DNA from: a virus
Length of the DNA: 36,698 bases
Strand: one strand, 5' to 3'
IMG/VR virus record: IMGVR_UViG_3300009432_000003
Span: 1-36,698 of that record
This document shows, piece by piece, positions 13,700 through 28,639 of the stretch. A program made the position numbers and the translations under genes. Each line of letters starts with the position of its first letter. Position 1 is the first letter of the stretch. The notes under the pieces are model-generated. The model saw only the letters and a program-made list of their open reading frames with translations, had not been told where the DNA came from and did no database searches.

Positions 13700-13739
13700 T
13701 TTACTTTTATGTTTACTTAGTTGATCATGTAACCTCAAT
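13700..13739 (+). promoter_or_regulatory. Early promoter/leader element, copy A
   Basis: TTTACT, 17 bp, GATCAT, 4 bp, then CCTCAAT. This has the same architecture as three other copies in the window, and the leader runs on into an AAAGGG ribosome site before the ATG at 13761. The expected start of transcription falls within or next to CCTCAAT. Confidence 0.75.
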
Positions 13740-13760
13740 CAAAAAACAAAGGGCATCGCC

Positions 13761-14048
13761 ATGAACATCATTAAAGAAATGACTCGCAGAATCGAAGAAA
13801 CTCGCGAGCATAATAAAGTTCCTTGCAAAAACTACGCTACCGAAGAAGCCGCAGAAAAAGCACTCGCAAAAATGGCAACTTTGGTTGGACAGCATCACGG
13901 TACTAGACAAGCAGACTACGTTGTTTTTTACAATGAAGCATGGGGTCGTTGGGTTGGCGCGATTTCTTTAAACGAACTATTACAGCGTGCCGATTCTTGG
14001 GGCGGCTATATTGGACTTTCAGCAGACAGAGGCTTTTACAGCTTCTAA
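13761..14048 (+). CDS. Small conserved phage protein on a rightward island
   Basis: A 95-residue protein on the strand opposite its late-gene neighbours, directly behind promoter/leader copy A. It starts MNIIKEMTRRIEETREHNKV and contains KNYATEEAAEKALAKMA and YVVFYNEAWGRWVGAISLNE, a pattern recalled from small hypothetical proteins of other phages and mobile elements. No catalytic or membrane motif is visible. Early-type expression suggests a host-takeover or regulatory role, but no function is assigned. Confidence 0.8.
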   Translation: MNIIKEMTRRIEETREHNKVPCKNYATEEAAEKALAKMATLVGQHHGTRQADYVVFYNEAWGRWVGAISLNELLQRADSWGGYIGLSADRGFYSF

Positions 14049-14051
14049 ATC

Positions 14052-14069
14052 AACCGCCCCTTCGGGGGC
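14052..14069 (+). repeat. 18-bp hairpin repeat with UUCG loop, copy 1
   Basis: AACCGCCCCTTCGGGGGC forms a GCCCC/GGGGC stem closed by a TTCG tetraloop right after the stop of the 95-aa gene. It is not followed by a T run, so it is more likely an mRNA stabiliser or weak terminator between two co-transcribed genes. It is identical to 14404-14421. Confidence 0.75.
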
Positions 14070-14091
14070 AATCAATCAAGGGAATAAAGAC

Positions 14092-14400
14092 ATGATTAAA
14101 TTACACCCAGAAACATGCCAAGCCATTGCAAACCTAATCAACAAAATAGACGCTTCAAAAATTATGCATAGCGAATTAATTGAAGATCATGGAAATAATT
14201 GTTATTGGATGCGGAATAAATTTGAAGCGATGGTTGCTTTGACAGAAGAGTACGGAATACCGCACGTTGGTTATGATATTGCCGTCCGTGAATTAAAGTC
14301 AGACATGTACAAGAACGCAAAATTAACCGTTGCTTTTGAAGACTCTCCACTATATGACAAACATAGCGTAGAAGTTGGTGAAGCAATCAGAAACAATTAA
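14092..14400 (+). CDS. Hypothetical early protein, second gene of the island
   Basis: The ATG at 14092 follows CAAGGG at suitable distance and is preferred over an in-frame start 105 bases upstream, which would overlap the previous gene and read through the hairpin. The product has 102 residues, starts MIKLHPETCQAIANLINKID, and contains a VALTEEYGIPHVGYDIAVRE segment. It is soluble and mixed helical/strand, with no recognised domain. Hairpins of identical sequence flank the gene on both sides, so it looks like a cassette. Confidence 0.72.
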   Translation: MIKLHPETCQAIANLINKIDASKIMHSELIEDHGNNCYWMRNKFEAMVALTEEYGIPHVGYDIAVRELKSDMYKNAKLTVAFEDSPLYDKHSVEVGEAIRNN

Positions 14401-18190: not shown

Positions 18191-18976
18191 TTACACCTTC
18201 GGGAAATTTGCTAATGGGTAGAATACTAACGTATTACGATACCCCCCTGAATGAGTTGGCACAATAGGCGTTACGCCATGCACGTTTCTCCAAGCAGGAT
18301 AATACAGCATAGAGTTATCCCTGCTGTCTACTGTTGCACCATAATCAGGTACAGTCGTGCATCCCCCTGTACTGTTACTTCGTTTCGTTATGATGACGTT
18401 AGAGCATCCTTTTAGGTTGCCGTTGTCCCTATGGAAGTCAGCGGCAATGTTGAAGTTTGAAATACTGCTAGTAAACAGGTCTCCAAACCTCCATTCTTTT
18501 GCGATGTTTTCAGCGATCAATTCTTTCTGTTGCTCATACAGTTCTGGAGTGATCTGTTTGACTATCTGCTCACTTTCTTTTGCAAGCATAAGCATCGCTT
18601 TGACAAACGTGTTTGCGCTCTTTACTCCATGAACACTGCTCCTCGTAGGATACGGTCTCCTCATGTGAGGCTTGGGAGGGATAGAGCCAAGTATAGTTGA
18701 ATATTGTAATACCTGTTTTGCCTTATCATCTTCCATAAACCCACTGCTTCTTTTCATTAAGCTTTTGGGTACATTTTTAGATCGTAATTCTTTGTCAGCT
18801 ATGTCAGCTAATTGAGCCGCTTTTTTGCTGTATTTAGCGATGTCTTTAATATAAAACCCTATAGGCTTTCCATCAATTAGGAACAATGAATCCTCTAGGA
18901 CGTTTGGGTCAATATGCCCGCAAGTGTCGCCTACTTTTACACTGTGCTCTATTTCCATCAATTCAAGATTCTTCAT
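18191..18976 (-). CDS. TET/JBP-type 2-oxoglutarate/Fe(II) DNA dioxygenase
   Basis: ATG 18976 overlaps the glycosyltransferase stop (ATGA) with GAGG 8-9 bases upstream; 261 residues. The C-terminal half has the double-stranded beta-helix signature: FHRDNGN (iron ligands His 182 and Asp 184), a GG turn in STGGCTTVPDYG, NVHGVTPI (distal iron ligand His 233) and GGYRNTLVFY (Arg 247 for 2-oxoglutarate). HxDxxN, HGVxP and RNSLxFY-like motifs together are characteristic of the TET/JBP family, which oxidises the methyl group of 5-methylcytosine or thymine in DNA. The N-terminal 170 residues are mostly helical. Overlap with a TAGT-like gene supports base modification. A general 2OG oxygenase acting on another substrate is the main alternative. 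Confidence 0.8.
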   Translation of the reverse strand: MKNLELMEIEHSVKVGDTCGHIDPNVLEDSLFLIDGKPIGFYIKDIAKYSKKAAQLADIADKELRSKNVPKSLMKRSSGFMEDDKAKQVLQYSTILGSIPPKPHMRRPYPTRSSVHGVKSANTFVKAMLMLAKESEQIVKQITPELYEQQKELIAENIAKEWRFGDLFTSSISNFNIAADFHRDNGNLKGCSNVIITKRSNSTGGCTTVPDYGATVDSRDNSMLYYPAWRNVHGVTPIVPTHSGGYRNTLVFYPLANFPKV

Positions 18977-19698
18977 TTTATTTTCCTCATGCAACTTTTA
19001 GCAAAACCAGATATGTCAGCTTTCACATCTAAGCGATTCGGTTTTTGTTTTAGCTGAATCCAAGGAGACCATGTTAATGCCAGTTTTTTAGCGGCATTAC
19101 TATCTCGGTTGTTCTTATACCAATCGTGGAGTCCACCCTTATTAGTCCCGACAACAGGCGTATCAAAAAACACTCTGTTAAACCTCAGTATCCCATGTCC
19201 TTGCTCTATACACTGGAAACAAAAGTCTCGGTCTTCTTTAGTGTCCTCTCTATAACGCCAATGGATATTCTTTACGTTAATCAGTACGCACCCCTCAACA
19301 AACTTTGAGTTGATAGACACCGCTTGTTTGGTACTCCACGCGAAAGCCCTAGTCCCTATCCCAACGATCTCAAACGGCAACTGAAACGCTTTCTCAGATA
19401 CACCCCATAATTCGTCAGCACTGGTCTTTCTAGTCTTTCCGTCAAACTTTCCAAACTGGGTAATGTCATCGTCACAGAACCACGCCCAATCTATTTGATT
19501 GTCCTTGCACCAATCAAGCATAAAATTGCGAACGTATGTCATCCCCATGTCATCGGCTTCAATGCAAATCTTGTTATTGACGCGATAACTGTCTACGTCT
19601 TGCGGCTCAACAAAATGATAGACGTCAAACCCTGCGGCCTCAAATAGTAAATGCGTCTTTGTCTCTGGCCTCCCCTTAGAGGGAATGCAGACAATCAA
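18973..19698 (-). CDS. TET/JBP-associated glycosyltransferase (TAGT-like, GT-A fold)
   Basis: Starts with TTG at 19698, overlapping the ParB stop and preceded by AAGG; no upstream ATG is available and the first strand (IVCIPSKGRPETK) begins at once. The 241 residues show a GT-A outline: a nucleotide-sugar-binding first strand, the metal-binding DDD in WAWFCDDDIT (76-78), a strand-rich middle, then an acidic EDTKEDRDF (151-159) and NKGGLHDWY near the expected catalytic/acceptor area. It would add a sugar to hydroxymethylated bases made by the enzyme encoded downstream. The sugar donor is unknown and no nucleotide-sugar synthesis gene is present, so a host donor is likely. Confidence 0.8.
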   Translation of the reverse strand: MIVCIPSKGRPETKTHLLFEAAGFDVYHFVEPQDVDSYRVNNKICIEADDMGMTYVRNFMLDWCKDNQIDWAWFCDDDITQFGKFDGKTRKTSADELWGVSEKAFQLPFEIVGIGTRAFAWSTKQAVSINSKFVEGCVLINVKNIHWRYREDTKEDRDFCFQCIEQGHGILRFNRVFFDTPVVGTNKGGLHDWYKNNRDSNAAKKLALTWSPWIQLKQKPNRLDVKADISGFAKSCMRKIK

Positions 19699-21692: not shown

Positions 21693-21712
21693 TTGATAAT
21701 TCCTCTTAATTG

Positions 21713-21752
21713 ATTGAGGTGTAACTATCAGTCATTTCTTCAAGAATGTAAA
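21713..21752 (-). promoter_or_regulatory. Early promoter/leader element, copy D
   Basis: Minus strand: TTTACA (21752-21747), 17 bp, GATAGT (21729-21724), TACA, then CCTCAAT (21719-21713). Spacings are identical to the other three copies. It drives the 85-aa gene and the small membrane proteins. Confidence 0.78.
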
Positions 21753-23775: not shown

Positions 23776-24224
23776 TATGTCACCTGTTGAGTTTTTAGTT
23801 TCTGGTAGTCGCTTTCCCTAGGGATTAACAAAGGAACTTTATGCTCTATTGCCCAATGATAAACTTCATCCATAAAATGCACCATTTCTCCTACATCCAA
23901 TTCGCTAGTCTTTCGGACTTGATGTTCTACCTGATATTCCTTGCCAATCTTAACAGTTTCGACACCTAAAAAACGATGCTTGAGCATTAATTTCATATTT
24001 TCACGAGTACAAGTCGGGTTTTTTGTGATAAACAAATCAGACATTTGCCCGCACCAATGGTGAAATAATGCGTTCTGGCTTGTCGTTCTAGGGTTTTTAT
24101 AAGGCTTTAATTTAAAGCAGAGCGGGGTTCGGTAATCCCACTCTTTTATTCGTTTGATAATATACGGAATCTGCTTTTCAGCGTGTTCAAGGTTATTGAT
24201 TTTGTTGTTATCGCCTTGACTCAT
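23775..24224 (-). CDS. NinB-like recombination protein
   Basis: ATG 24224 (ATGA overlap with the HTH gene, GAGGG upstream) is preferred over an in-frame ATG at 24245; 149 residues. NPRTTSQNALFHHWCGQMSD (the QN-x-LFHxW element) and RKTSELDVGEMVHFMDEVYHW followed by AIEHKV resemble the NinB/YbcN family, whose lambda member (Orf) assists Red recombination and binds SSB and ssDNA. The recombination genes of the rightward arm and ninG support this context. Family membership is moderately sure. Confidence 0.68.
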   Translation of the reverse strand: MSQGDNNKINNLEHAEKQIPYIIKRIKEWDYRTPLCFKLKPYKNPRTTSQNALFHHWCGQMSDLFITKNPTCTRENMKLMLKHRFLGVETVKIGKEYQVEHQVRKTSELDVGEMVHFMDEVYHWAIEHKVPLLIPRESDYQKLKTQQVT

Positions 24225-24475
24225 ATTATCGCCCTCTTTAACCATTGGTAAGAAAGTGACTGTGGTTCTTCAAATACGACACTTCGCTTGCCTCTGCTTG
24301 CTTTTCTAAAATCGTATGAAGTACAACTTGATCTTTGACTAATTCTTGACCTTATTGATGGGTCACTCATTCCTGTTAATTCCGACAATTCTTTTATTGT
24401 GTATTGCGCACCATCTTCTAATTTAGGATGTTTTCCTAAAAATGTTATTTTTCTTGCGACTGTTACACTGCTCAC
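24221..24475 (-). CDS. Small HTH regulator
   Basis: GTG at 24475 overlaps the upstream stop (GTGA) and follows GGGGAACGG; a TTG 15 bases upstream is possible. 84 residues with YTIKELSELTGMSDPSIRSR, a clear helix-turn-helix (about 27-46), then a basic stretch RKASRGKRSV. It may regulate the leftward early genes; no operator can be assigned. Confidence 0.68.
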   Translation of the reverse strand: MSSVTVARKITFLGKHPKLEDGAQYTIKELSELTGMSDPSIRSRISQRSSCTSYDFRKASRGKRSVVFEEPQSLSYQWLKRAII

Positions 24476-24969
24476 TTTACCGTTCCCCAATCTGTTCTTT
24501 TATCCCTAGACTTGACGTTTATTCGCATCCTTACACCTTTTTCACCATTATTTTCATCGCGATATTGTTGCAACCCTTTTTTCTTTTGTTGGTAATTGCT
24601 TTTCGCTCTTATTTTTTGATTGTGCCTAACCCATGTATAAAGTCTTATGTTTTTTAACACATCCATGTTGTCTAGTTTTTGATCAGCCAACGCCAACAAG
24701 AGAGGTAAACAATGAGAGCCAATAAAATCATCTACGGTTTGCTTGTATTTTTGAAACCGTAAATCTCCATTCCATGCCCTATCCCTGCAACGCCTTAATT
24801 CAAGGCTATCAAAATAATCATAACCTTCTTTTGTCATGTGGTTATTTTCATCAATTAGATCAGGACGGTATTCGCTCATAAATTTCCACACTACATAACC
24901 CATTTTGCGCCTATAACCATAATTTACGATCATGGTCTTATCCCAAAGGTTTTGCATTTCCTTATCCAT
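24472..24969 (-). CDS. Hypothetical basic protein in the replication arm
   Basis: 165 residues starting MDKEMQNLWDKTMIVNYGYR, overlapping the upstream gene by 8 bases. Rich in Lys/Arg and Tyr, with WNGDLRFQKYKQTVDDFIGS in the middle and a strongly basic C-terminal third (KIRAKSNYQQKKKGLQQYRD). Probably nucleic-acid binding; no family recognised. Confidence 0.7.
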   Translation of the reverse strand: MDKEMQNLWDKTMIVNYGYRRKMGYVVWKFMSEYRPDLIDENNHMTKEGYDYFDSLELRRCRDRAWNGDLRFQKYKQTVDDFIGSHCLPLLLALADQKLDNMDVLKNIRLYTWVRHNQKIRAKSNYQQKKKGLQQYRDENNGEKGVRMRINVKSRDKRTDWGTVK

Positions 24970-25354: not shown

Positions 25355-25371
25355 TTTGATGCCCTTTTTTG

Positions 25372-25411
25372 ATTGAGGTTTAATTAAATACTATTTTTTA
25401 TTCAATGTAAA
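25372..25411 (-). promoter_or_regulatory. Early promoter/leader element, copy C
   Basis: Minus strand: TTTACA (25411-25406), 17 bp, TTTAAT (25388-25383), TAAA, then CCTCAAT (25378-25372), leading through AAAAAAGGGCATC to the ATG at 25354. The -35 box lies inside the 3' end of the upstream gene. Confidence 0.78.
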
Positions 25412-25869: not shown

Positions 25870-26265
25870 TTGAACTCCTGTGGCTCGGCAAGCCTCGCTA
25901 GATTAATTAAATGGTATTTTTTTGATTACTTTTTTTAAAAACATATATTAGAGATGATTTAACCCTTTTACTGCAAAACAGTAAATTTACGATCAAAGGG
26001 CTAAAGCGACTCTGCGGTTAAATTATGTTTGTATCGTATTTCCAAACTATTCACAGGTAAAAACCGATTTAACTGTGAGGCTATGTGCGGAGGGTCAACC
26101 GCGACTATGGCATTATTTAAGGAATTCGCCACCCGAAGGGTCATGTTAATTCATGACTGCTCTAGCCCAAACATCATGCAATGATCGTTTATGTAGCCAA
26201 AAAAGTAAACCCAATCCATAATAACATTTTGTAATAAGCTTATTACTAAATACTATAAACAGAAC
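25870..26265. other. Control region between the two early arms (possible origin)
   Basis: About 450 bases up to the next ATG with no credible gene. It is AT-rich at both ends and contains a TTTACTG/CAGTAAA hairpin (25967-25985), a GTCATG/CATGAC inverted repeat with a 6-base gap (26140-26157), an ACCC/GGGT mini-hairpin beside it, and the 16-bp palindrome listed separately. The position between divergent early operons suits operators and a replication origin, but no iteron series is seen. Confidence 0.55.
26231..26246. promoter_or_regulatory. 16-bp perfect palindrome, candidate operator
   Basis: GTAATAAGCTTATTAC is fully self-complementary and lies 19 bases upstream of the -35 box of early promoter B. 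Size and symmetry fit a dimeric repressor or activator site. The small HTH proteins encoded at 28424-28639 and 24221-24475 are candidates. No second copy was noticed. Confidence 0.5.
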
Positions 26266-26305
26266 TGTACATTTATATTTATATAAACGATAATGTAACC
26301 TCAAT
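26266..26305 (+). promoter_or_regulatory. Early promoter/leader element, copy B
   Basis: TGTACA (26266-26271), 17 bp, GATAAT (26289-26294), GTAA, CCTCAAT (26299-26305), then AAACAAAGGG before the ATG at 26324. It is the strongest -10 match of the four copies and drives the rightward recombination operon. Confidence 0.8.
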
Positions 26306-26323
26306 TAAACAAAGGGTATAAAT

Positions 26324-26488
26324 ATGAAATACGAAACCGCCATAAAAATCTTAAAAAAAGACATGGAGTTTTTGGGTTTAACTTTAGAAGAGTTTTTAAT
26401 TTTTTCTGCAAGAAACCCATGGACTGTGCCAAACAGAGTCATCAAAGCGATTGAAGTTTATAACAATCACAATAAGGTGGCTGTATGA
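26324..26488 (+). CDS. 54-aa hypothetical protein, first gene of the rightward arm
   Basis: Begins right after promoter/leader B with AAAGGG about 7 bases upstream. MKYETAIKILKKDMEFLGLT starts a helical protein that continues LEEFLIFSARNPWTVPNRVI and ends at TGA, overlapping the next ATG. No family recognised; promoter, ribosome site and overlap make it a convincing gene. Confidence 0.7.
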   Translation: MKYETAIKILKKDMEFLGLTLEEFLIFSARNPWTVPNRVIKAIEVYNNHNKVAV

Positions 26489-26652
26489 GTGTTAATGATC
26501 TGTGTGACTATGAGCGTGGCGAGTATGACTGTTTACATGGTCACGATGTAAAGGACAATGAATCACCTGACTATTATAGTGGTTATGGTGACCGTTATTG
26601 TGAAGAACAAAACCAAACCGCAAGAACCGTACAACAATTTAATGGGGAATAA
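26485..26652 (+). CDS. 55-aa acidic small protein (GYGxRY-EQ type)
   Basis: The ATG overlaps the previous stop (ATGA). MSVNDLCDYERGEYDCLHGH, then SPDYYSGYGDRYCEEQNQTA: the C-x-H-G followed by Y-x-x-GYG-x-RY-x-EQ pattern is shared by many small early phage proteins. Cys/His residues could bind a metal. Function unknown. Confidence 0.65.
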   Translation: MSVNDLCDYERGEYDCLHGHDVKDNESPDYYSGYGDRYCEEQNQTARTVQQFNGE

Positions 26653-28423: not shown

Positions 28424-28639
28424 ATGGAAATGATCGACGCGGGAAAATGCGTGAGATTTGCGCAAGAAAAAAGTCAGGTCAGCAGTGCAGAATTATCTCG
28501 CTTGACCAAAACATCACCCCAACAAGTGCTTCGATGGAGAAAGCACAAGAATATGAAACTCCATACGATGCAATTAATTTGCTCTTGCTTGGAAACAAGC
28601 ATTGTAGATTTTTTGGCGTTACCTTTAGGTGACCGCTAA
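28424..28639 (+). CDS. Small Cro/CI-like HTH regulator
   Basis: 71 residues, preceded by AGGATTGAAAAG. VRFAQEKSQVSSAELSRLTK followed by TSPQQVLRWRKHKNM gives an HTH in which the second helix reads TSPQQVLRW, like Cro/XRE-type regulators. It has no C-terminal peptidase or oligomerisation domain. It lies convergent with the endolysin gene, overlapping its last 4 bases. It could switch between early and late expression; lysogeny is not indicated because no integrase is present. Confidence 0.75.
   Translation: MEMIDAGKCVRFAQEKSQVSSAELSRLTKTSPQQVLRWRKHKNMKLHTMQLICSCLETSIVDFLALPLGDR

Follow-up and report, generated by a model that had tools for sequence, protein, structure and literature searches.

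A conserved leader sequence and a candidate repressor shared by putative early promoters of an uncultured marine phage

Four promoter-leader elements in one phage genome

The window, i.e., the whole stretch of DNA analyzed here, is a 36.7-kb virus record from IMG/VR, with a G+C content of 41%, that comes from an uncultured marine phage. It carries a tailed-phage gene set (terminase, portal, capsid, tape measure) and, furthermore, genes for a Sak annealing protein, a RecE-like exonuclease, NinB, NinG and a queuine tRNA-ribosyltransferase-like protein; at 18191-19698 on the minus strand, the latter adjoins a glucosyltransferase-like protein, and these are possible 7-deazaguanine DNA modification genes. 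Among the gene families matched, no partner CI or integrase was recognized. Four look-alike elements are found on the two strands:

13700-13742, plus strand: element 1, with the -35 box TTTACT (13700-13705), the -10 box GATCAT (13723-13728) and the leader CCTCAATCAA (13733-13742), reading TTTACT-N17-GATCAT-GTAA-CCTCAATCAA-..AAAGGG; downstream lie 13761-14048 (phrog_3633 family) and an open reading frame at 14092
26266-26308, plus strand: element 2, with the -35 box TGTACA (26266-26271), the -10 box GATAAT (26289-26294) and the leader CCTCAATTAA (26299-26308), reading TGTACA-N17-GATAAT-GTAA-CCTCAATTAA-..AAAGGG; downstream, from 26324 onward, lie the Sak annealing protein, the RecE-like exonuclease and an HTH protein
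25369-25411, minus strand: element 3, with the -35 box TTTACA (25411-25406), the -10 box TTTAAT (25388-25383) and the leader CCTCAATCAA (25378-25369), reading TTTACA-N17-TTTAAT-TAAA-CCTCAATCAA-AAAAGGG; downstream, from 25354 leftward, lie a replisome-organizer-like protein, NinB, an exonuclease and NinG
21710-21752, minus strand: element 4, with the -35 box TTTACA (21752-21747), the -10 box GATAGT (21729-21724) and the leader CCTCAATCAA (21719-21710), reading TTTACA-N17-GATAGT-TACA-CCTCAATCAA-TTAAGAGGA; downstream lies 21692-21435 (DUF7249)

The layout shared by all four comprises a TTKACW-type box, 17 bp, a -10-like box, 4 bp, CCTCAAYYAA, a Shine-Dalgarno (SD) site and ATG. The first-pass annotation had placed four such elements at these sites with these spacings, and all four are indeed present; its description of the boxes holds at most sites, the exceptions being the third -10 box, TTTAAT, which is not GATAAT-like, and the SD site behind 21719, which is GAGGA rather than AAAGGG. 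The window contains exactly five copies of the string CCTCAATYAA, and the fifth (11723, plus strand) has no promoter and is not ahead of any gene. In each element, as in sigma70-type promoters, a gene is preceded by a -35 and a -10 hexamer with 17 bp between them, and the four could well be sigma70-type early promoters of a single phage regulon. That this regulon is early, we infer solely from the gene content of the units, which includes recombination and replication genes.

Spread of the layout and constraint on the leader

A weight matrix of the whole element gives the four sites of the window scores of 35-46, whereas a single Markov shuffle of the window and related contigs (709 kb) never exceeded about -0.5; the matrix was trained on exact-leader sites, the four of the window included, and therefore under-counts variants. 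When about 30 related contigs were scanned with it, most contained one to four elements, with scores mostly above 20, and the four copies of the window are the maximum per record among those examined. The bias of a motif-based search is answered by 622 kb of relatives that were fetched with the Sak protein and without use of the motif: here, 35 of the 39 ACCTCAAT octamers stand in the exact layout. Thus, the search over the genome and related phages that had been proposed as a check finds the layout recurring. A gapped leader-SD pattern matches at least 119 stretches in viral contigs, and among the matches listed about 38 sites show the full promoter geometry before an ATG. The tolerated leader variants include CCTTAATCAA, TCTCAATCAA, CTTCAATCAA and CCACATTCAA, so that the consensus is roughly YYTCANTCAA. 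The relatives compared are metagenomic fragments throughout, and even with identical copies merged, kinship among the remaining sequences still inflates these counts.

Beyond viral contigs, the strict leader pattern hit only five unrelated sites in bacterial genomes, all without a promoter, and yielded no host or prophage; the collections searched contained no close cultured member of the phage group. Matches of the consensus element to coliphages in blastn are dismissed as chance because the two representative phages that were read have no promoter there, and two Vibrio phages that share part of the replisome-organizer-like protein carry no such element. To judge from titles and abstracts, a literature search for the leader string returned no paper concerning it. 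In three loci upstream of a phrog_3633 relative (L146, L147, L158), from phages without the HTH gene, the sequence TTGCAC-N17-TACAAT-CACA-GCTCAAGCAAC has the same geometry with a changed leader and appears to be a distant relative of element 1.

The conservation of the leader is best gauged against that of the promoter spacer. Among 18 distinct upstream regions of DUF7249 orthologues, chosen by protein similarity, the mean pairwise identity of the leader is 0.83, compared with 0.49 for the 17-bp spacer, 0.67 for the -10 box and 0.50 for the next four bases; the value of 0.93 for the -35 box is inflated since the alignment was anchored on TTTAC. Leader identity, moreover, holds where that of the spacer drops. 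This indicates that the leader is under a constraint of its own and bears out the earlier suggestion that conservation extends past the probable transcription start. In other phages, where the DUF7249 relatives fall below about 45% identity, promoter and leader are both missing. Furthermore, at 78 TCAATCAA sites with an open reading frame behind them, a -10-like hexamer lies exactly 4 bp upstream in 46 and at any other single distance in no more than 10, whereas between leader and ATG there are anywhere from 14 to 22 nt. The position of the leader is thus tied to the promoter rather than to the start codon.

The HTH protein, its candidate operator and a structured RNA

The following features bear on the control of these promoters:

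28424-28639, plus strand: small Cro/CI-type HTH protein of 71 aa (Pfam HTH_26, E 5.4e-8; 33.4 bits, cutoff 22)
26181-26209, minus strand: fifth promoter, leaderless, with TTTACT (26209-26204), 17 bp and GATCAT (26186-26181)
25958-26175, minus strand: conserved structured non-coding RNA of about 215 nt; the modelled part, 26175-26021, comprises the closing helix and a three-way core

The HTH gene is the last in the run of genes that starts at element 2 on the same strand, an order that is kept in the relatives compared by position. Homologues are present in 27 of 36 related contigs, including every near-complete one that bears the leader (G001-G010, G012, G013), and are absent from the leaderless contigs G011 and G035-G037; where a homologue is otherwise lacking (G021-G023, G027, G032), the contig is a fragment. 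The type of the HTH protein tracks the -35 box and the spacer. In the subgroup with the residues TSKPQV, a perfect GTTTAC-N6-GTAAAC dyad spans the -35 box in all four distinct promoters, and in the VSRQR subgroup, TTGAC replaces TTTAC in every promoter; the remaining types have mostly TTTAC, along with TGTAC, GTTAC, TATAC and two TTGAC exceptions, which occur with SPQQ-type proteins. This correlation comprises few independent switches and one main clade, and the dyad is weak in the promoters of the window itself (1 to 4 of 6 positions matched). The leader, in contrast, is unchanged across all HTH types. Hence the likely contact of the HTH protein is the -35/spacer region, which is probably the repressor site; CCTCAAT, for which that role had been considered, probably is not. 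One small repressor probably runs the layout across the phage group. Of 27 related contigs, only 8 encode a homologue of the window's other small HTH-like protein (24221-24490).

Same-type promoters that lack CCTCAAT emerged from a search with the -35 signature; most of them directly follow the HTH gene, and in the window the fifth promoter stands ahead of the structured RNA. Here the RNA is encoded on the other strand from the HTH gene and points away from element 2; in relatives it usually follows directly behind the HTH gene. Its structure is supported by covariation: RNAalifold on 20 sequences gave 38 pairs, 21 of them with compensatory changes, and a covariance model of the first 130 positions had 84 hits in a set of 85 loci, many of them fetched by a pattern derived from the RNA. 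Refolding of the covariance-model alignment predicted 31 pairs, 27 with compensatory changes, a count that leans toward the model to which the alignment was fitted. The single-sequence minimum-free-energy test was strong for the RNA of the window (z -3.4) and not strong for that of L215 (z -0.9). Against the 4227 covariance models of Rfam, the window RNA had only a chance-level match on the other strand (23.6 of 88 bits), and none of ten relatives reached a gathering threshold; a blastn search of cultured phages gave no match. In viral contigs the RNA has at least 120 hits. With strong covariation, no Rfam match and this many hits, it may well represent a new RNA family.

Among 106 loci newly fetched with the RNA-derived pattern, 97 also hold the HTH gene. 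The -35/N17/-10 layout occurs in 21 of 76 distinct 5' flanks of the RNA, and in none of the 21 is there a leader in register; TCANTCAA is found nearby in three flanks, each time overlapping the -10 box rather than forming an in-register leader. The regulon thus seems, from these comparisons, to make an undescribed structured RNA as well. The earlier proposal of an early regulon of four units is right in that the elements form one set and falls short in number, given at least a fifth unit with a leaderless promoter ahead of this RNA. Loss of CCTCAAT with retention of the boxes, which had been named as an observation that would refute the proposal, is accordingly seen at the non-coding-RNA promoters and is not seen at the protein-coding ones. 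Phages with TTGAC promoters have the RNA without this promoter type. In five loci of another subgroup (L282, L284, L285, L314, L320), a repeated GTCTT-like or GCGTCC-like sequence, not TTTAC, lies upstream of the RNA and is perhaps the operator of a different HTH type.

How the leader may work

A part of the leader recurs in a different setting, exemplified in the window by one feature:

14056-14092, plus strand: intercistronic hairpin GCCCC-TTCG-GGGGC with AATCAATCAAGGGAATAAAGAC-ATG directly behind it, a leader-like sequence with no promoter

About a dozen related places have a promoter-less hairpin GCCCC-N4-GGGGC that leads directly into AATCAA, an A-rich stretch, AAGGGG and ATG, and other hairpins are followed by a second type of ribosome-binding site (RBS), ATTTGCTGTAGGAGGCAAT. 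What stands ahead of the 26485-26652 gene family differs between phages, being the promoter-leader in some and a hairpin-RBS cassette in others, and in one phage CCTCAATCAA is joined straight to the second RBS type. These swaps indicate that promoter-leader and RBS are exchangeable modules, and in the sequences compared CCTCAATCAA stays with the promoter end.

The explanation that we prefer has two layers. In the first, the operator of the phage's own Cro-type HTH protein would be formed by the -35 box together with the first part of the spacer; as this protein is encoded in the operon of element 2, its accumulation would switch off the promoter of its own operon along with the other early ones. 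In the second, the decamer YYTCANTCAA, which invariably starts 4 bp past the -10 box, would form the 5' end of the early mRNAs, and the leader, running into A-rich sequence and the SD site, would make an unstructured, CA/A-rich ribosome loading site. The argument for an mRNA 5' end is that the leader is predicted to be 5'-terminal and is unstructured, CA/A-rich, present on mRNAs, absent from the co-regulated RNA and partly reused behind hairpins. On this basis, early mRNAs may quite plausibly begin with the leader, which would aid their translation or ribosome loading. To the two-layer regulon as a whole we assign a probability of about one half; the transcription start, HTH binding, repression and the effect on translation we infer from comparative sequence analysis. 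In a permutation test, the actual order of the first four leader bases folds more weakly than all 100 of 100 permuted orders. A hairpin between CCTC and the SD site was accordingly rejected: it shows no covariation and folds more weakly than with permuted orders, so that the order in the leader disfavours pairing with the SD site. An anti-termination signal (boxA/boxB or put-like), another of the functions first suggested, finds no support either, for the leaders fold weakly and there is no conserved hairpin within or after them.

The main rival to this translation reading, clearly less probable in our estimate, is that the leader acts on DNA at initiation, with CCTC as a C-rich discriminator and AATCAA as the initial transcribed sequence tuning the lifetime of the open complex and the escape of the host polymerase; selection would then be for promoter strength or growth-state response, as in T5 early or rRNA promoters. 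Such a role agrees with the tolerance of pyrimidines at the first two leader positions and with the T5 N25 promoter, where productive initiation depends strongly on the initial transcribed sequence (PMC12464699). The exact 4-bp distance to the -10 box, next to a variable distance to the SD site, fits a promoter role at the DNA level equally well and is a point against the reading that we prefer. What speaks against the initiation role is that same-type promoters before the non-coding RNA lack the leader, that AATCAA also follows promoter-less hairpins, and that, in our judgement, a near-invariant block of ten bases exceeds the usual initial transcribed sequence; the first of these is not clean proof because a non-coding RNA needs its own 5' end. 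The known T5 early promoters resemble the present ones in that the sequence just behind the start belongs to a strong sigma70 phage promoter; the present case differs in that many promoters and phages have a near-invariant ten-base block in common, which same-type promoters ahead of the non-coding RNA lack.

It is improbable that CCTCAATCAA serves as the binding site of a phage or host protein, whether at the DNA level as a second operator or in the RNA, and so marks all early units for joint control. Many invariant positions, common to unrelated first genes and all HTH types, would suit such a target; the sequence, however, is not palindromic, no second regulator was seen to track it (the sparse distribution of the 24221-24490 protein being a case in point), and the structured RNA pairs no better with the leader than with shuffled leaders. 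Least probable of all is that recombination spreading promoter-leader cassettes among early genes, as boundary sequences, is what mainly keeps the leader, given that near-identical promoters ahead of differing first genes in related phages, the alternative cassettes before the 26485-26652 family and the Sak, RecE-like and NinB/NinG recombination genes are all compatible with such traffic but copying of whole cassettes does not explain a leader at 83% identity beside a spacer at 49% or less.

Returning to the two-layer reading, its translation part recalls the ACA motifs that raise translation from just upstream of the SD site, with no strict spacing to SD or AUG (yifK, dppA; PMC3879156). The likeness is an unstructured CA-rich sequence shortly before the SD site; the phage element differs in being longer and promoter-locked, and the ACA triplet that defines those enhancers is present behind 13733 and 26299 and missing behind 25378 and 21719, i.e., in two of the four leaders of the window. 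The repression part is akin to Cro/CI-type early control in lambdoid and other phages, with a small HTH_26-type DNA-binding protein in an early operon and a candidate operator dyad that overlies the -35 box at several of the early promoters, among them the one ahead of the HTH gene itself; the differences are the single candidate operator per promoter and the presence of the same boxes ahead of a non-coding RNA. An extension that we consider rather unlikely is that, across a large group of uncultured marine phages, YYTCANTCAA is a common 5'-terminal tag of early mRNAs which sets phage messages apart from other transcripts with respect to translation or stability, and that untagged promoters under the same repressor make a new class of structured non-coding RNA with a part in early control.

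In practical terms, the four look-alike sites provide a regulon signature by which the early genes of this phage group, its likely master repressor and the candidate operators can be recognized. Because promoters of one type occur both with the tag, ahead of mRNAs, and without it, ahead of the RNA, the function of the leader can be tested directly.

In the nin region of lambdoid phages, short conserved boundary sequences with translation signals lie at gene borders, and neighbouring genes are exchanged across them. The borders described here likewise have conserved translation signals across which genes appear to be exchanged, and differ in consisting either of the promoter-leader or of a GC hairpin that carries an RBS of one or the other type. 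At the loci with a GC hairpin and an RBS cassette (14056-14092 in the window; L175, L183, L204, L209, L221 and L254), the neighbouring genes appear to be exchanged between phages.
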